Positions 2,744-64,000 of a stretch of DNA of 64,000 nt are shown here, in pieces (position 1 is the first letter of the stretch; every line of letters begins with the position of its first letter). Both the position numbers and the translations under genes were made by a program. This DNA is from Datnioides undecimradiatus (lineage: Eukaryota > Chordata > Actinopteri > Lobotiformes > Datnioididae): NCBI GenBank assembly GCA_008933995.1, contig WARS01000029.1, forward strand, positions 18,879,511-18,943,510, given 5' to 3'. The notes under the pieces are model-generated. The model was given only the letters and a program-made list of their open reading frames with translations, searched no databases and was not told the origin of the DNA.

Positions 2744-4219
2744 CTGGAAGAGACACACACACACACAAACGAAAACATGTCTTAAAGGGATAGTTCGGAT
2801 ATTTTGAGGTGGGGTTGTATGAGGTAGGAGATTTTAGCTGGAGGCCCGTCTAAAAAAGGATCGTTATCAGTTTGAGCGCAAGCGATGTTAAGCTTATTTT
2901 CACTGCTTTACCCTGCTGTCGGACAGCCCCTCAGACAGGAACTGAAACAGTTCTGTCAAATCCATCAGCCTCCTTTGACAAAAACAGTCATTTTACCTCA
3001 CAGAGCACAGGAGTCGCTTATCGACCTCCACATCGATCAGTTAGTTTGTCAAACATCTGCACAATTATTATCTGACTTTTGTGAGGCAATGGTAGACCTG
3101 CAACTCCGGTGCTCTGGTGTCTGGTGCTCCAAGTGAAGATGGATATGACCGCTTCAGGTGCGTTGCTAACGATACTCCCGCTGCTTCTCTAAGCTGAGCG
3201 TGTGCCTACATCCATCTACTGTAAGTAATACACTGACTATGAGTAACTTCTTCATACAATCCCATTTCAAAACACCATTTACTATCCTTTTAAGACTGCA
3301 AGTTAAGTATTAGCATATTGTTGTTGCACCTTGTGATCTTGATTCAACAAATTAATGAATGTTACATTTTTTAATTTATTCACTAATATTTCTGCCCCCT
3401 AGTGGCTCCTATGAGCTACACTGATGTCCACAGATGACACACTCAACCAAGATCACTTGGTTCTGGCCCCAGCTTGCAGGTACATGTATTGGCTTGTTCT
3501 TTATCCTGAAGATGACCAGCCAAAAACAAAATGCCACACTGCCGTGTCAACATATTTTCAGGTCAGTTCTGCGCCAGGAAGAAACACCATCGTATAATTT
3601 TCACTCCAAGATATCAATTCCTCCACCAAAAGTGAGCTCAGCAGACCAGAATGTAACACCGGCACACACAGCGCATCTTCAAGCAGGCAGTCACACACAA
3701 ACTCATACACTCAGCCTCCGGCAGCAGATAAGCCTGGACCTGGCTGCTCAGGCTGTGAGGAGATGCCTGGTATCAGCTGCTGGGTGCCGAGTGATGCGTT
3801 CCCTCTAACAGGGGTATCGTTGTCTCATACAGAGGTCACTCCCTCTAAATAAATGTGCAGGCAAAGTGCATGTAAATACCAGCATGTTCCTCTGAGAGCT
3901 GCTGCTCCATATCATTTACACTGCGCATGCAGGACAGGTTGTCATTTGACGCAAATATTCGAGTTGGGTTTTAAAGAGCTTCTGCCCGTCAGTTATCAAT
4001 AGATCAAATCATCTAATAACTTGTGTGAAATAATTAGTCACTTGTATGCTGGAGATTATATAAGCCCTGGAACATAAATGGCTCTTCATCTTAACTGAGG
4101 TATGTTGATAAATGAAGTGAGAAGAAACCTTGAGAAACAGTTATTTGTGTTTTTTTCTCTTTAGAGAACAGTTTATGGTTAGAACTATCTTTTGTGTGCA
4201 TGCGTGTGTGTGTGTGTAC
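2744..4219 (-). other. raver2: intron 14, about 1.5 kb, one third of it a MITE
   Basis: Donor gtacac, directly followed by a CA repeat in the transcript. A 512-base TTAA-flanked element fills 2782-3293. The rest is AT-rich unique sequence; the 124-codon plus-strand open frame at 3434-3808 has no recognisable content. Confidence 0.85.
2782..3293. mobile_element. TTAA-flanked MITE (piggyBac-type non-autonomous relic)
   Basis: The left end starts TTAAAGGGATAG and continues through TTTTGAGGTGGGGTTGTATG. The right end read in reverse starts TTAAAAGGATAG and continues through TTTTGAAATGGGATTGTATG. These are imperfect inverted repeats of about 40 bases, each bounded by TTAA, the target duplicated by piggyBac elements. 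It has no transposase frame. I recognise the terminal and internal sequence as a dispersed teleost repeat. The TTAA assignment is my reading and could instead be an internal coincidence. Confidence 0.75.
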
Positions 4220-4321
4220 CTTGGTGGCGTAGGCCTGATTGGCTGCCGCAGGCTGGGAGTAGTACTGAGTGACGGCCTGCATGTAGGAACTGTAATCCCC
4301 GTAGTTTGACACGGGCGGAGC
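4220..4321 (-). CDS. raver2: raver2-like exon 14 (Tyr/Gln-rich)
   Basis: Phase 0 at both ends (102 bases, residues 637-670). The acceptor is tgtgtttcag before GCT CCG CCC; the donor is gtacac after GCC ACC AAG. It encodes APPVSNYGDYSSYMQAV followed by TQYYSQPAAANQAYATK, with six tyrosines in 34 residues. It resembles the prion-like Tyr/Gln segments of RNA-binding proteins. The start may correspond to an SPPFGDY-like segment in the human RAVER2 tail as I remember it. Confidence 0.9.
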
Positions 4322-4451
4322 CTGAAACACAAAAGCAAGATATTTCAAAATTGCTGTAGCGTTCATTACTTTGTCAATTAAAGATTTAGGAATTTATGAT
4401 GATGACTCCCACACGCAAACATACAAATGAGTGTGTGTGCATGTGTGTTAC
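4322..4451 (-). other. raver2: intron 13 (130 bases)
   Basis: Short intron with donor gtaaca and acceptor tgtttcag. Nothing else seen in it. Confidence 0.88.
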
Positions 4452-4562
4452 CTGTGCGTGCTCCTTGCTGTAGTCTGTGGCTGTGCCGTCCTGTGGAGCA
4501 GCAGTGCTGTAGGTGTGAGCTTGTGCTGCTTGGTAGTGCTGGTACCACTGCTGCATGGCCTC
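4452..4562 (-). CDS. raver2: raver2-like exon 13 (Tyr/Gln-rich)
   Basis: Phase 0 at both ends (111 bases, residues 600-636). The acceptor is ctgtcacag before GAG GCC ATG; the donor is gtaaca after CAC GCA CAG. It encodes EAMQQWYQHYQAAQAHTYS followed by a segment ending DYSKEHAQ. The WYQHY and DYSK words recall the tyrosine motifs in the tails of FUBP/KSRP proteins, but this is a resemblance only. A UG-rich tract sits just upstream of the acceptor in the transcript. Confidence 0.9.
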
Positions 4563-4587
4563 CTGTGACAGACAGACAGACACACAT

Positions 4588-4621
<34 letters not shown>

Positions 4622-5310
4622 CCCCCAGCAAACATCAGGTGAAGAGTGGTTGAATGTTTGCTCAGTAATTTTCTTGTCTCTACTGATTTTTTGCCTCCTC
4701 TTTTATTTCTCTTTCTTTTCTCATTCATTAACTATTGTTCCTGCCGACGGCTCTCCCCTGTTCATCCTCTTTGTCTTGCCTTTCCAGACAAATTAAACCG
4801 ACCGTTTTATTGGTTATCTAATCATGATTCATTTGTTTGGATGAGTAGATTGTAATTAACATTTGAAATTGGGTTTGTATTGCACTGCAAATATCAGATA
4901 TGCCACTTGCTGCTGGAGGAGGAAACGCTGCGGTGAGAGGAACAGAGTGACAGAGGGAGAGAGAAGAAAGAGAAAGATGCAGACAAACAGCCAGTATGAC
5001 TTGTTCTGAGTGGAGTGTTGGGAGAGAGGGGAGAAGGGAGTAGGGACAGATGGAAAGACACGGCGCTCGCTGCCAAATCCTCTCTCAGTCTGTCTGTCCA
5101 AATATCCAAACGCACCCTCCCTGCCTCCCGTAGTTACAGCTCACTCTGTCACTGCTGCACTCATTCATCCACTTGTTATGTATCCATCCATCATCATCAT
5201 TTATTCACACCCTGTAACATTTAAGCCCGAGTAACACTGCGTCACATGCATCTGTCACCGTATTTCGTCACTTGTATCTTTGCATCGTGCGTCTGGGTGC
5301 GTTGCCGTAC
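4563..5310 (-). other. raver2: intron 12 (748 bases) with (CA)n by the acceptor
   Basis: Donor gtacgg. Plus strand 4918-5080 is GA-rich (pyrimidine-rich in the transcript). A CA repeat at 4589-4620 becomes a UG repeat just upstream of the exon 13 acceptor. No gene seen. Confidence 0.85.
4589..4620. repeat. (CA)16 microsatellite next to the exon 13 acceptor
   Basis: Uninterrupted CA on the plus strand, giving UG in the transcript. It is separated from the splice site by a short CUGU/CACAG stretch. Confidence 0.93.
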
Positions 5311-5492
5311 CTGTGTGTAGGCCTGGTTGTATTGGCTGTAGTCAGTGGAGGTATCGGTGCTGTATGGAGCTGTGGTCGTAGCTGCCGCGCTGTGAGAGAA
5401 GGAGCTGGTGCCCTGGGAGGCGACGGGAGCAACCGAGGTGCCATACACCCCTGAGCCAGGCTGTCCACCCTGGGGTTTGCTCCCCACTGACC
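5311..5492 (-). CDS. raver2: raver2-like exon 12 (Ser/Thr/Tyr-rich)
   Basis: Phase 1 in, phase 0 out (182 bases; residues 540-599, completing Gly539). The acceptor is cacccag before GG TCA GTG. A second AG lies six bases further in and would remove two residues in frame. It encodes SVGSKPQGGQPGSGVYG, a Ser/Ala/Thr-rich middle, and ends DYSQYNQAYTQ. There is no domain. It opens the Tyr/Gln-rich part of the tail. Confidence 0.9.
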
Positions 5493-6514: not shown

Positions 6515-6623
6515 CTTGCAGAACCACCCCTGGCATTACACTGGCAAGATTCAGGTAAGGATTGGAGGGCAGCCTGACCTCTTTGGGAGGATCACCCAAC
6601 AGAGAGCTCTGACCACTGTTTAC
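6515..6623 (-). CDS. raver2: raver2-like exon 11 (PTB-interaction motif)
   Basis: Phase 0 in, phase 1 out (109 bases, residues 503-538 plus one base). The acceptor is ctctcttcag before GTA AAC AGT; the donor is gtgagc. It encodes VNSGQSSLLGDPPKEVRLPS and then NPYLNLASVMPGVVLQ. SLLGDPP (509-515) is a full match to the (S/G)(I/L)LGxxP motif by which raver proteins dock on PTB RRM2. The NPYLNLAS words agree with human RAVER2 as I recall it. Confidence 0.95.
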
Positions 6624-8512: not shown

Positions 8513-8871
8513 CATGCTAGCCAGGGGGCAGCTTTCTGAGCTGTTGTGCTGGCCTGTTGACGTATAAACTCCTCCAGGAGGGTTGGGTGGAGGCGGGCCA
8601 AGGCCTGAGTTACTTATACCCAAGGAGTAGCTCTGTCCCTGCGGGTGAGAGCTCACCATGGTCCCAGGAGGAGCTGGCTGCCTGTCACAGGAGGTGGAGG
8701 AGGAGGAAGAGGAGGAGGAGGTGGAGGAAGCAGAAGGGGTCGTGGAGACAGAATGGGTGCTGTTTTGTTCTCCACCTCCAGCTCGACCCTGAAGGTACGG
8801 CATCACACCTGCTGCCGACACCACTACTGTGGCATTGTGGGTAGACGATGGCGCTGACTCCTGGCCCAACT
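8513..8871 (-). CDS. raver2: raver2-like exon 10 (Ser-rich linker)
   Basis: Phase 1 in, phase 0 out (359 bases; residues 384-502, completing Glu383). The acceptor is cgttcag before AG TTG GGC; the donor is gtgaga after GCT AGC ATG. It encodes LGQESAPSSTHNATVVVSAA, then GVMPYLQGRAGGGEQ, then a serine run of 12 residues broken by threonines, coded by a GGA-rich plus-strand tract at 8690-8735. A Pro/Gly-rich end follows. It is a disordered linker between PTB-docking motifs. An internal ATG|GTGAGC could act as an alternative in-frame donor, and an exceptionally long AG-free pyrimidine tract precedes the exon. Confidence 0.9.
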
Positions 8872-10880
8872 CTGAACGAAAGGACAGAGAAAAACAGAGA
8901 AGGAAAGAAAAATGGTTGAATGCAATGGAAAGGGAAACAAATAGAAACAAGAAAAGGAAATAAAAGCAAAGGCGAGAGAGGAAAGGAAGAAAATCAAAGT
9001 TCAAAGTTGAGTGCATGAAAAACAGAAACGGTGCAGAAGAGGAAAGGAAAGGAAAAAAGATAAGAACACAAATGAAAGAAAGTAAATGAGATGAAAAAGA
9101 ACGAAAAAAGTAGAAAAGGAGAAAAAAGGAAACAAGAAGAAACAAACGAAAGTCACTGACAGCAAAAGATGGGAAAGGCATAAAAATACAACTCGGAGGA
9201 GCAATGTAAAGAAAAGGAAATTAAGTCAAAGGAAATGAAAGCAGGGAGGAGAGAGATGCCAGATAAACACTTGAAATGTTTTTGTTTTTTTTTAACTGAT
9301 GACCATCAGTGTCTCTGTCTCCTCCAATCACTCAGACGGATGGACACTGAGAGCCCAGCCCGGCCGTCTCTGCAGAGCCGGTTGTAATATTTGAGAAAGG
9401 CTCATACATCATCACTTATGTTTATTTACAGCCCGGCACTTTGCTCCACACTCCCAATATTTCGCTCACTCCGGGGTTTAATAAACACAAATGTGCACAC
9501 ACATACATATACACACACAAAAAAAAAGAAAACAACATACACGGACGTAAAAGCATGAGTACACATAATTTAAGTTTGCATGCATACAGTGAAGGTGAAC
9601 ACACACACACACACGATCACACTTATTATAAATCCAATATTGCCGTGACAAATGGCCTCCACAGCACAATAAAAGAATCAGCTCTAACAAGCCTTAAGCT
9701 AACAATCCCGGCAGACACATGCACTGATAAAAGCCTCACATTACACACACACGCAAAATTGCAATTGCATAGATACACACACACACACGAATGCATCAGT
9801 ACGCACACACACAAATGCTTGTGTTTGTGCACACGCGGCCTGTGATATATCATTTCCGTTTAAAACAACATGTTTTTTTTTCTCTCAGTGGGGATTTGAA
9901 TTGTAAATGCACTGCAGTCTCCTGGAGGATGTGCTGTACAGTAATAACAACTGTGAGGCACTCGGGAACCTGCGCCGGGGCAACTCTGACACCTGACATT
10001 AACATTTTTATGATTGAGGGCTATTTACATCCCCTTTTACCCGTTCATCACCCTCTTCCTTTCAGTTTACATCTCTTTTTGTGCACCAGTTACTGTTGAA
10101 ACACACAGCTTCACATCAAGCGAGAGATTCACGCTTTCAGGGAGAAGAGTACGTCCTTTTTACAGCAGTGAGAAATACCTGAGAAAATACAAATACTCTT
10201 TGGGATATTGAGACTTTTTTAAATCCCTTTATTGCCTGAAGCAGGTGGTCCCAGCTTGGATTTAGGTGGCTTATGTTGGAATATCAAGTTAAATACCTTT
10301 ACAGTTTGCTTATCCTAAAATACTTACAGCGGCTTTAGTTTAGACACAATCACAACAAGGCGGCTGTCAACATTTAACCATGACAGTTTCTCAGTATAGT
10401 GGAGTCCACTGAGATGTGCTATGTCCATATTTGGTCAAAACAGTGAATGCTCTGCTCATGTTAGGGAGACGCTGCACAAGACTGGTCACAAGAATCCCTC
10501 AAGATATGATTATATAATATTAAATGGTATTAGAAACCTTTTTTTTTTTAATGATATTTTGAAGACAGCACTTGAAAAAGCAACAGGTTTAATCTCTAAT
10601 CATTCATCTTCTTCCATGAGAAGCTGCACAGAGCAACACCACCAGTGTTGACCTGACACTGACCTGAGGACGTACAAGCTGCTTTACATCGACAGAAACT
10701 GGCTGCGGCACTGGAAAGCTTTCAGATGCTCTTACAAAGGCAGACGACAGAATAACCAAGAGGAACATTATAGATTTGATAAATGCAGCATTAACAAAAA
10801 CACAGCTGTCCGTCTCATTAGTTTGCAGTAATTACGCTGAGTTGTTTGACAACGGCGTGCTGATACTCGGCACTGCTCAC
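8872..10880 (-). other. raver2: intron 9 (2.0 kb)
   Basis: Donor gtgagc after CCT ACA G. The acceptor side (8872-9250) is an almost unbroken polypurine block on the plus strand. Imperfect CA/TG repeats lie at 9490-9850. No gene seen. Confidence 0.87.
8874..9155 (-). promoter_or_regulatory. raver2: 282-base AG exclusion zone and polypyrimidine tract before exon 10
   Basis: On the plus strand there is no CT dinucleotide between the acceptor (8872-8873) and 9156-9157, so the transcript has no AG for 282 bases. The transcript strand is rich in UUCUUU, UCUC and UUCC words of the type PTB binds. Just downstream of the distal AG the transcript reads GTGACT, a plausible branch site (A at 9153). Known for the class: long exclusion zones go with distant branch points and regulated exons. 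Regulation here is inferred. Confidence 0.7.
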
Positions 10881-10992
10881 CTGTAGGGGAGTCTCCCAGG
10901 AGGCCTTTCCCCAATGGCACAAGGCCTGGAGGTCGCAGAGACAAAGCTTTCTGCATCAGCAGCCTGGATGGGTCCCCGAGCAGACTGGAGAC
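10881..10992 (-). CDS. raver2: raver2-like exon 9 (two PTB-interaction-like motifs)
   Basis: Phase 0 in, phase 1 out (112 bases, residues 346-382 plus one base). The acceptor is ctccacag before GTC TCC AGT; the donor is gtgagc. It encodes VSSLLGDPSRLLMQKALSL, then RPPGLVPLGKGLLGDSPT. GLLGDSP (375-381) fits the PTB-docking motif (S/G)(I/L)LGxxP. SLLGDPS (348-354) lacks the last proline. The human counterpart has a complete GLLGEPP here as I recall. Confidence 0.95.
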
Positions 10993-11750
10993 CTGTGGAG
11001 GAAAGGGAGGAAAAAAGGTTAAAGGTGGTAAAGATGGGAGAGGAATAAAGAGAAAGACAATAAATGTAATCAAAGAACGAAAAAAAAGAGATAAAGAGGA
11101 GAGATTAGAGAGAACCGCACAAGAACCCAGGAGAGAAACACATAATGCTGTGCACTGTTATACATGCATGAGGTTTTATGAATTCATGAAAGCAGCGGCT
11201 CTGTCTGTAGTGGCGACTGTTCATACATATACATAAGTAAGCGGAACATTTTGCCTTTTTCACATTCCTCTCCGCGCTCGCACAATTGTAAGAGTGTATT
11301 ATTTGGAAAGCATCAGGAAACGACGAGGAAAAAGAAATGAAAAAGCCAAGTAAGTCCGGAGTTTAAAGAGTTTACGGGTGGTGGAGGGTCAAAAAGGAAA
11401 GAAGTAAAAAAAAAAAAACAGACGCAGCGTTCTCCTTTTCCGGATTCTGATTTGTCATCAGCCAGTTGCTAAAACAACACCGACTCTGCAAACATCAGTC
11501 GCACTGACATAACTTTCACTTCAGCAATTAAAGAAAACACTGGAGACATTTTAAAATATGCAAATTGAAGTGTGGAGGGACGTTTTGACACCTTGAGGTC
11601 TCCCTTTAAAGAGAAAAAAGGCAATTAGGTTGCCTGATTTGGAGACTGCTTGGTTTCTTTATGCATAAAGTGCTGAAGAGGACAGTGTAAAGGCGCGTGA
11701 CCGCAACTACTACTTAAACCTAAAGTACACACACACAAATAGTGTCTTAC
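10993..11750 (-). other. raver2: intron 8 (758 bases)
   Basis: Donor gtaaga, acceptor ctccacag. Purine-rich on the plus strand next to the acceptor. No gene seen. Confidence 0.87.
10995..11147 (-). promoter_or_regulatory. raver2: 153-base AG exclusion zone before exon 9
   Basis: No CT on the plus strand between the acceptor at 10993-10994 and 11148-11149. The transcript tract is pyrimidine-rich (UCUUU, UUUCUCU). Branch-site candidates near the distal end are weak. Confidence 0.6.
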
Positions 11751-32700: not shown

Positions 32701-32865
32701 CTGGCAGAAGACCGGTTTGTATGTTTCAGAGAAGAGCTGGGTCAGTTCTTCGGACTCGCAGAGGTCCAGCGGCAGCCGGTTCACACAAATACACTTGGAG
32801 TGCAGGTTCTCCTCTTGGCTCAGCTGGTTGACGTCCATCCACTGCACCATCAGTGAGCGATCACC
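32701..32865 (-). CDS. raver2: raver2-like exon 4 (end of RRM2, start of RRM3)
   Basis: Phase 0 at both ends (165 bases, residues 126-180). The acceptor is ttgtgcag before GGT GAT CGC; the donor gtcagt follows TTC TGC CAG. It encodes GDRSLMVQWMDVNQLSQEE, finishing RRM2, then NLHSKCICVNRLPLDLC with the RRM3 RNP2 strand CICVNRL, then SEELTQLFSETYKPVFCQ. QWMDVN, HSKC and KPVFCQ agree with human RAVER2 as I remember it. Confidence 0.97.
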
Positions 32866-33767: not shown

Positions 33768-34075
33768 CAGCGGTCGGCCCAGCAGCTCAGAACGAGCTCG
33801 TGAAGCAGAATCCTTCTTCATGTATTCAACAAATCCATATCCCTTGGAGTGGCCCGTCAGGTCACTGTACACCAGGAAGGAGCGCTCGATGTTCCCGTAG
33901 GCGCGCACCAGTTCCTCAAACTGCTGGGCAGTGAAGGTGTGGGGCAGGTTGGTGAGGCAGAGCAGGGAGTCGGTGGGCTGCAGGGTGACGTTGATCAAGC
34001 GTCCCCGGACAGTGCTGTGATGGAGGGAGCGGATGGCATCCTGAGCCTGGTCCCCGTTCAGCAAAGTCACAAAGG
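33768..34075 (-). CDS. raver2: raver2-like exon 3 (end of RRM1, most of RRM2)
   Basis: Phase 1 in, phase 0 out (308 bases, residues 23-125). The acceptor is cctccag before CC TTT GTG; the donor is gtatgt after CGA CCG CTG. It encodes [20 protein letters not shown], the end of RRM1. RRM2 follows: RNP2 LLCLTNL, helix [19 protein letters not shown], and RNP1 [16 protein letters not shown] and [15 protein letters not shown] are hallmark raver words. In RAVER1 the RRM1 face binds the vinculin tail; whether the same holds here cannot be seen. Confidence 0.98.
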
Positions 34076-34077
34076 CT

Positions 34078-34457
34078 GGAGGAGGGGACATTATGGAGAC
34101 AGCGACGAGAGGAAAAGACAGACACAGACAAGAACAGACACAAAGAAAGAGATGCACAGACATAAATAGATGGAGACGTGTGAGAGACAAAACACAGACA
34201 TACATTTAAAGCAGACATTCACAAACAGGCAGAGAGCAGCGTGCGCAGAGTGCAGAATGGAGACGCACAGTTAAAAAAACATGCAAAAAAACAAGTCACA
34301 TGAAAAGCAAAGGAAATAAATGACAAGCCGAATGTGGCAAAGTGACAAAAAATAAGAGATAAAAGACAAAGTTGGGCACGAACAACCAAAATCACAGACA
34401 GACAGTCATAAAGACAGACAGACAGACAGATACACAGAGAGAAAGACAACACATTAG
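34078..34457 (-). promoter_or_regulatory. raver2: 380-base AG exclusion zone and polypyrimidine tract before exon 3
   Basis: The plus strand has no CT between the acceptor (34076-34077) and 34458-34459, so the transcript lacks AG for 380 bases. The tract is rich in CUGUCUGUC, UCUUU and UCUCUCU words. Directly after the distal AG the transcript reads CTAAT, a full match to the yUnAy branch consensus (A at 34454), 379 bases from the exon. A distant branch point is the natural reading; regulation is inferred. Confidence 0.75.
34412..34430. repeat. (GACA)n tetranucleotide repeat
   Basis: Short run of GACA on the plus strand (UGUC in the transcript) inside the pyrimidine tract upstream of exon 3. 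Confidence 0.85.
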
Positions 34458-35414
34458 CTAGAAAGCCAGTAGGGAGCCACTATGTAGGGGAATCCACTGT
34501 GACGCACACATACATACACACCTCATTCTATAAAATGACAACCTGACCGATGTATATATGGACAAGTGACAAATTAAAGGAAAAACCAACACAAAGCTTC
34601 TTAGTATAGACACCAGAACAGCTTCGATGCTCCTTAGCATTGATTTTATTACTATCTTTCTAACTCTAAACTGGAGCGATGAACACTACCCTCCCAGATA
34701 TATTCCTTCATTTGCTGTTTTTATGATGATATACCAACACCTGACTTATGGCTCTTCCGTAGGTGTTTAACTGGATGGCTGCGAAGGTCATAGTGCATAA
34801 TGCTCGCCCACTTGTTGAGAGCATAATGAAGGATGACTCATGTGACCAAATCCCTTTTTTTTCCCACATCTTTGCAGTTTACGCACTGCATCACTTCTAT
34901 AATATGTAACTGTCAGTGCACTGTTATTGCTGTCTGCCGTCGGCATCTGTGAAAGAACCGCGCTTCTGTTATGCATATATATCAAAGTATGGGACCATGA
35001 TGCTCGTGCATGCGTCGCGGTCTTCAAATATACACTGTCTGTGCTGACTTCTGACCCTATTTACTGATTTCTTCCCAATAGATCTACATTCAGATGTAAT
35101 CACTGCTCCTGCTCCGCATCTGGTCAGTTGAACAGTCTTTGTGACTGAAGCTCCTGTCATCTGTGCCCCAACAGTGAACCCTCTTTCTGAGTAACTTAGA
35201 TCTTTTCCTCTTGTCCTTGACACAAAATCTGATTCAGTTGGGCCGGCTCAGCATTTTCATGCATGCCGCAGAGCGCGATTGGATGTTAATTACTTAATTG
35301 TACCATTCTGTGCACCTGTGTGTAAGCATTGAAGCATCTGCACTCGTTATGTATCAACTCTTGTTTATTCAGGTTTTTCATTTAAATTGTCACTTGTGCA
35401 TGTGTGTGTGTGTG

Positions 35415-56837: not shown

Positions 56838-56904
56838 CTGTGCCTTTGTTACGGTCCACGAAGCAGTACTTCAGTTCATATTCTTTCAGAATTTCATGGA
56901 CTTC
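56838..56904 (-). CDS. raver2: raver2-like exon 2 (RRM1, middle)
   Basis: Phase 0 in, phase 1 out (67 bases, residues 1-22 plus one base). The acceptor is ctctttacag before GAA GTC CAT; the donor is gtaaaa after GGC ACA G. It encodes EVHEILKEYELKYCFVDRNK and GT. The helix and strand of RRM1 match EVHDLLKDYDLKYCYVDRNK-type raver sequence. The preceding exon should end in a complete codon and carry the RRM1 RNP2 strand; it was not found in the window. Confidence 0.96.
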
Positions 56905-63239: not shown

Positions 63240-64000
63240 ACAGGTGGCTCAAACCATGCACAGCACAGATCACTGGCCCATCAAACGCCTGCCAGGAGAG
63301 CGTCTTAGAAAACGTGCGCGCTCACACGTCGAGCGCAGACGAGCATAAATGCATACGAGTGCAGACATCTCTTTTTCTTTCTCCCTCAAACACCCTCTCC
63401 GAGTTTCAACACCATGTATGTGACTTTGACACCCCCTCTCTGCTCTGGCTCTGGTTTAACAAGTTTGTTTTGATTCCCCTCCTCCTCTCTTCCCTTTATC
63501 TCGTTCTCTTTGCCCTGGCTCTCTCTCCCTCTTTCTCGCTGCACACCCATTCTCCCCATCCTGCCCTTGTGTCCCCCCTCAAACTCCTTTCTTGTCCCCT
63601 CATTTGTATCCTCCTGCTTTCTCCTGTCTTTGGTCTTTGCTCTTTTTCATTGCTGGCCTGAACAATGGCTGTCTGGTTAAATTTTCATGCTGCATTACTG
63701 TTACTGCTCCTCCTCTCTGACCTTTTTTCCTTCTCTCTTTTTCCTGACTTAATAGCAAACAGAGATGAACTTCTCCATCACTACATCTTGTGTTTTGTTT
63801 TTTTTTCTTCTTTCGCATGCCTTCTTCAGATGTTTTGCCCACTTCCAGTAGAGTAGAAGCAGATGATGCAGTAAGGATGCACAGCAGGACCACAGATTCA
63901 AACCAGTAATCACCCTCAGCAGTCACAGGCACATGGTCCACGAGGTGCACTGTGCACCGATGGACTCTTAATGTGCCAAAACAGCGGTCAGAACTTGTTG

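Follow-up and report, generated by a model that had tools for sequence, protein, structure and literature searches.

A 380-nucleotide AG-free zone before exon 3 of a RAVER-family gene points to a probable distant branch point

Why does the last part of a 22,762-nt intron on the minus strand of the Datnioides undecimradiatus genome contain no AG dinucleotide for 380 nucleotides? The first-pass annotation had placed this zone before an exon encoding parts of two RRM domains and had connected it with a branch point far from the exon 3 acceptor. Having analysed the window, that is, the whole 64,000-nucleotide stretch of DNA in which the exon lies, we come to the same reading: exon 3 of this RAVER-family gene probably uses a distant branch point. 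A long AG-free zone combined with a far branch point is an arrangement already known, and it is often linked to regulated exons. The features on which the argument turns are as follows.

56838..56904, minus strand: exon 2, 67 nt
34458..34459, minus strand: distal AG bounding the zone; the next upstream AG gaps are 20 and 15 nt
34078..34457, minus strand: AG-free zone that closes intron 2, 380 nt between the flanking AGs
34394..34448, minus strand: imperfect TCTG-type tandem array, 55 of the zone's 380 nt
34076..34077, minus strand: acceptor AG of exon 3; the Raver-1 alignment is continuous across exons 2-3
33768..34075, minus strand: exon 3, 308 nt (2 modulo 3), coding for the last part of RRM1 and the greater part of RRM2
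32701..32865, minus strand: exon 4, 165 nt; its bases 3-5 would read TGA in frame after a junction with exon 2

Exons 2 to 6 encode a 284-residue piece with three RRM_1 domains, whose closest solved chains are three Raver-1 entries (E ~5e-90, residues 1-247). Both results uphold the RAVER-type identity proposed earlier, and by this homology the gene belongs to the RAVER (PTB-binding ribonucleoprotein) family. The exons were searched with an approximate human RAVER2 sequence, and seven of them matched it at E ≤ 0.004 (2, 3, 4, 5, 6, E8 and E11). These matches make the gene a likely candidate for RAVER2 rather than RAVER1. E9, E10 and E12 to E15 were called from open frames and the look of their splice sites; E10 bears a by-eye likeness to what we take to be the human RAVER2 sequence, and E16 was called from its presumed likeness to RAVER C-termini. 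Exon numbers beyond 6 are nominal, and E7 was not found among the exons read in the window. A bacterial RRM-like contig match (31 percent identity over residues 39-100) was set aside and no relatives were found in viral contigs, both collections being unsuited to an animal gene.

Scanning both strands for AG bore out the 380-base AG-free run reported before exon 3 on the minus strand, and the acceptor AG was located as proposed, at 34077-34076. The run is the longest in the window on either strand and ranks first among 4228 minus-strand AG-to-AG gaps (mean gap, 13 nt). Base composition predicts 6.5 AGs in the zone, where none is observed; the probability of this in a mononucleotide shuffle is about 0.0007, a figure uncorrected for the choice of the longest run. 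The adjoining 380 nt upstream hold 29 AGs, which is a normal density. The two halves of the zone are each mildly AG-poor (shuffle P 0.03 and 0.02) and about equally so, and the distal half is thus without distinction.

The zone was also compared with same-strand places of comparable pyrimidine content, the three acceptor zones being excluded. A is followed by G at 0 of the 38 As in the zone, as against 39 out of 222 in controls at Y ≥ 0.68 (P 0.0006) and 14 out of 100 at Y ≥ 0.72 (P 0.003), both P values again uncorrected for the choice of the longest run. The avoidance of AG exceeds the effect of pyrimidine content. Its composition (T 49, C 24, G 17 and A 10 percent) corrects the earlier description of the zone as CU-rich: it is U-rich with UG, and CU-richness is not its plain character.

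A different account of the same zone would make the acceptor an ordinary one, with a branch point at -16 to -19 and a neutral UG/UC-rich, partly microsatellite-derived stretch that lacks AG by chance. We regard this as rather unlikely. In its favour, the zone is likewise short of GA (4 observed, 6.5 expected) and 55 of the 65 Gs are preceded by T, so that the lack of AG arises in part from a TG/TCTG texture. The TCTG-type array lies within the zone, but this main array makes up a small part of it, and a tandem repeat as the sole origin was rejected because the array spans 55 nt only. AG-free runs of 290, 165, 153 and 151 nt occur elsewhere without a recognised acceptor, whereas three of the five minus-strand runs of at least 150 nt end at acceptors, in a list compiled partly after the runs were known. 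A published precedent exists in IDB1079466.8106, where a 369-nt AG exclusion zone (AGEZ) is a repeat artefact and a branch word stands at -17 (PMC1431707). The likeness to exon 3 consists in a long, simple-sequence AG-free zone with a branch-like word at about -17. However, the upstream AGs are widely spaced there and closely spaced here.

Which adenosines could serve as the branch point? Three words deserve to be set out.

34453..34457, minus strand: CTAAT, A at -379; as AGCUAAU it matches 6/7 positions of ynyURAy; U2 duplex crudely estimated at -4.0 kcal/mol
34270..34276, minus strand: TTTTAAC, A at -196; the sole 7/7 match to ynyURAy in the zone; U2 duplex -1.9
34090..34096, minus strand: CCATAAT, A at -16; 6/7 match to ynyURAy; U2 duplex -0.6

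The region where a branch point is usually placed holds few candidates. CCATAAT is the sole T-N-A word close to the exon 3 acceptor; it (as CCAUAAU) or an A at -19 could serve an ordinary acceptor, followed by a clean pyrimidine-rich stretch of 14 nt. T-N-A is then absent from -18 to -87. The nearest such word beyond -18 lies at -88, the farthest among the 14 acceptors read, the other 13 having theirs at -19 to -73. Likewise, a single A (at -19) falls within -18 to -60 at exon 3, compared with between 2 and 18 at each of the remaining 13 acceptors. These sparse nearby branch words, together with the normal AG spacing upstream of the zone, favour a branch point located at -88 or farther out as the best reading and make a proximal one less likely. 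The distant-branch-point proposal has thus gained support from the lack of conventional candidates between -18 and -87 and from the short upstream AG gaps.

Within the zone the choice is wide. The perfect yUnAy word noted earlier at the far end, CTAAT, is present with its A at -379, yet it is not singular, being one of nine such words in the zone (at -379, -334, -285, -278, -242, -226, -196, -106 and -88), and the best heptamer is the one at -196. Selecting one branch A by U2 pairing was given up. The strongest pairing near exon 3 belongs to UGCGCAC at -167 (-6.8), which fits the consensus at 5/7 positions only, and a crude duplex measure that scores best at such a site cannot decide the matter. 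An RNA fold that would shorten the distance from branch to acceptor was likewise rejected, since the 411 nt considered fold in an ordinary way (z 0.21; 58 of 100 shuffles reach the same stability).

In the distant-branch-point reading, the zone would be the stretch from the branch point to the exon 3 acceptor. The U2 snRNP would engage a branch A no nearer to exon 3 than 88 nt, and more likely some 196 to 379 nt upstream. The spliceosome is expected to take the first AG 3′ of the branch point, and AGs between branch and acceptor would therefore have been removed by selection. The long spacing would tend to lower the inclusion of exon 3, and skipping would lead to an immediate stop and to an mRNA suited to nonsense-mediated decay. 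Here, the position of the branch point is what we infer from sequence; skipping and its regulation are speculative.

In alpha-tropomyosin exon 3 and the alpha-actinin exons, the branch point is far away and regulatory sequence fills the space before the exon. Exon 3 of the RAVER-family gene would share both the far branch point and the intervening regulatory sequence, each putative here. It differs in that the exons of alpha-tropomyosin and alpha-actinin are mutually exclusive or alternative, whereas no partner exon came to light among the exons read here.

Closer guidance comes from published surveys of distant branch points. Against a threshold of 150 nt for such exons, the AGEZ of exon 3 measures 380 nt. 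The AG gaps upstream of a zone have been used to separate distant branch points from repeat artefacts (Gooding et al., PMC1431707), and the 20 and 15 nt found upstream of exon 3 match the distant-branch-point pattern of that paper. At the far end, the candidate branch word AGCUAAU is followed by 20 nt with 80 percent Y. In common with the exons of Gooding et al. (PMC1431707), the zone is far longer than 150 nt and sharply edged and has a branch-like word beside its far AG. It holds no T-N-A word from -18 to -87, though CCAUAAU at -16 and an A at -19 lie closer to the acceptor. In contrast to those exons, the zone is UG-rich, and its branch point is a candidate only. Corvelo et al. (PMC2991248) mapped or compiled nine exons with long AGEZs, and all but one of them use distant branch points. 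Counting against our reading of the zone, Gooding et al. (PMC1431707) put the share of human AGEZs of at least 100 nt that mark distant branch points at only one-half to one-fifth.

The nearest parallel is exon 11 of PTB (PTBP1), which has an AGEZ of 380/381 nt and a mutation-verified branch point at -351 (PMC1431707). The two exons agree in zone length and in that skipping gives a decay substrate (predicted for ours), and their products are partners. Whereas the branch word of PTB exon 11 is a perfect UACUGAC at -351, the far word at exon 3 matches at 6/7 positions; exon 3 is also a 308-nt exon coding RRM1-RRM2, whose skipping is hypothetical. In the excerpts seen, the term raver occurs in PMC1431707 in the references only, as does the phrase "distant branch point" in PMC3420021 and as do both terms in PMC3880588, and nothing on exon 3 was found in PMC10897606, PMC3905889, PMC4365034, PMC5062968 or PMC9508853. 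Human RAVER2 is misspliced by SF3B1 E592K in a report that does not name the intron (PMC10120771), and a table in a study of SMG9 (PMC9090808) carries RAVER2 with the uninterpreted value -2.3.

What would skipping of exon 3 do? Reading the junction of exon 2 with exon 4 confirmed the predicted GGG TGA stop: the sequence is ACA GGG TGA, and 160 nt separate the stop from the exon 4/5 junction that follows. This junction invites a model of self-tuning, in which PTB and RAVER would bind the zone, exon 3 would be skipped, the mRNA would decay and RAVER would fall, much as with PTB exon 11. We consider this improbable. Any exon of a length not divisible by 3 will usually yield a stop when skipped. 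The encoded protein retains SLLGDPP (exon 6515..6623), which conforms to the consensus of the PTB-binding (PRI) motif, [S/G][I/L]LGx[AVP]P (PMC3420021). Long AG exclusion zones, along with skipping/decay switches, are common to exons of PTB, nPTB and ROD1 (PMC1940037). A distant branch point does not imply skipping, since evidence of skipping was found for 43 percent of human exons with a branch more than 100 nt away and for 28.6 percent of those with a close one (Corvelo et al., PMC2991248).

Word counts in the zone speak to the choice of factor. By a list of our own making, the zone contains 32 PTB-type tetramers, a count reached by only 33 of 1258 minus-strand windows outside the zone. However, shuffles of the zone give 37 ± 7, and 76 percent of 2000 shuffles reach 32; the tetramers are also denser in the zones of E9 and E10 (19.0 and 14.2 per 100 nt) than in that of exon 3 (8.4). 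The earlier suggestion of PTB-type regulation gains no support from this comparison, as the density is no higher than composition gives, and self-tuning through PTB stays a hypothesis. With PTB-type words at or below the shuffle level, PTB is not singled out by the sequence.

A UGU-binding repressor or activator of the CELF/CUGBP type, placed around the distant branch point and setting its use, as reported for CUGBP2 in the branch-site perimeter model (PMC2715136), might be considered instead, and to this too we assign a low probability. TGTT, TGTG, TGTC and TCTG words, a list again of our own choice, number 53 in the zone against 17.6 ± 3.9 in shuffles; 0 of 2000 shuffles and 5 of the 1258 other minus-strand windows reach that count. 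The same words, however, accompany TCTG/TG repeats. On the whole, the counts lean towards a CELF-type or plain-repeat reading over PTB. Regulation of any kind presupposes a distant branch point, and our confidence in these models therefore overlaps with that in the distant-branch-point reading itself.

Should the branch point prove to be distant, exon 3 would belong to a small group of exons that are skipped more than usual and whose long AG-free zones are vulnerable to single mutations creating an AG. If skipping is used, nonproductive-splicing control in the style of PTB, nPTB and ROD1 would extend to a partner of PTB. At present, exon 3 is a testable candidate switch.

Exon 3 is not the sole exon of the gene preceded by a long AG-free zone. 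Two further cases were found.

10995..11147, minus strand: 153-nt AG-free zone at the likely acceptor of E9 (exon 10881..10992)
8874..9155, minus strand: 282-nt AG-free zone at the likely acceptor of E10 (exon 8513..8871)

The E10 zone is 85 percent pyrimidine, with the nearest yUnAy at -90 and a T-N-A at -46, which makes E10 a second candidate for a distant branch point in this gene. In the E9 zone, an ordinary branch-point word, CTTTAAC, stands at -27. The absence of AG is ordinary for the composition in both (shuffle P 0.25 for E9 and 0.17 for E10). It is conceivable, though very doubtful, that several distant-branch exons act at once (exon 3 and E10), with UGU- and pyrimidine-binding factors tuning the amount of RAVER and its C-terminus within a PTB-type self-regulating network. 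Skipping of exon 3 would then mean loss of RRM1-RRM2 and decay.

Across the 14 acceptors read, the AG-free lengths are 72, 380, 42, 25, 40, 102, 153, 282, 29, 53, 96, 30, 35 and 43 nt. Four of the 14 reach at least 100 nt, compared with 838 of 67,334 exons in the survey of Gooding et al. (PMC1431707), a reference made up of human exons and not of this genome. The acceptors of exon 3, likely E9 and likely E10 account for the three of five long minus-strand runs mentioned above, with hypergeometric P values of 3e-7 (4228 gaps), 4e-4 (269 gaps of at least 40 nt) and 1e-3 (97 gaps of at least 60 nt); these are optimistic, as the acceptor list was compiled partly with the runs already known.

The next-longest AG-free runs after that of exon 3 are the 290 nt at 63464..63753 (plus strand) and the 282 nt before E10. 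The former is a pyrimidine-rich tract (shuffle P 0.036), with no exon recognised following it on the plus strand. A 151-nt TG-rich run at 9471..9621 (minus strand) lies within the E9-E10 intron, and its shuffle P of 0.0008 is on a par with that of the exon 3 zone. Inspection of the sequence 3′ of the minus-strand runs 9621..9471 and 11431..11279 revealed no recognisable exon. The 290-nt run without an exon and the TG-rich run of equal P indicate that such tracts have other origins too.

Between RAVER-like exons at about 4100..5492 on the minus strand, we observed Tyr/Gln-rich frames (DYSQYNQAYTQ, QQWYQHYQAAQ and YGDYSSYMQAVTQYYSQP) with acceptor-like sites; to our knowledge, human RAVER2 has no such frames. 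E9 codes for two motifs, SLLGDPS and GLLGDSP, that loosely resemble PTB-binding motifs. The phases of E9 and E10 agree, the 112 nt of E9 leaving one base and E10 starting with two. Skipping either E9 (112 nt) or E10 (359 nt) alone would shift the frame, whereas their combined 471 nt are a multiple of 3.
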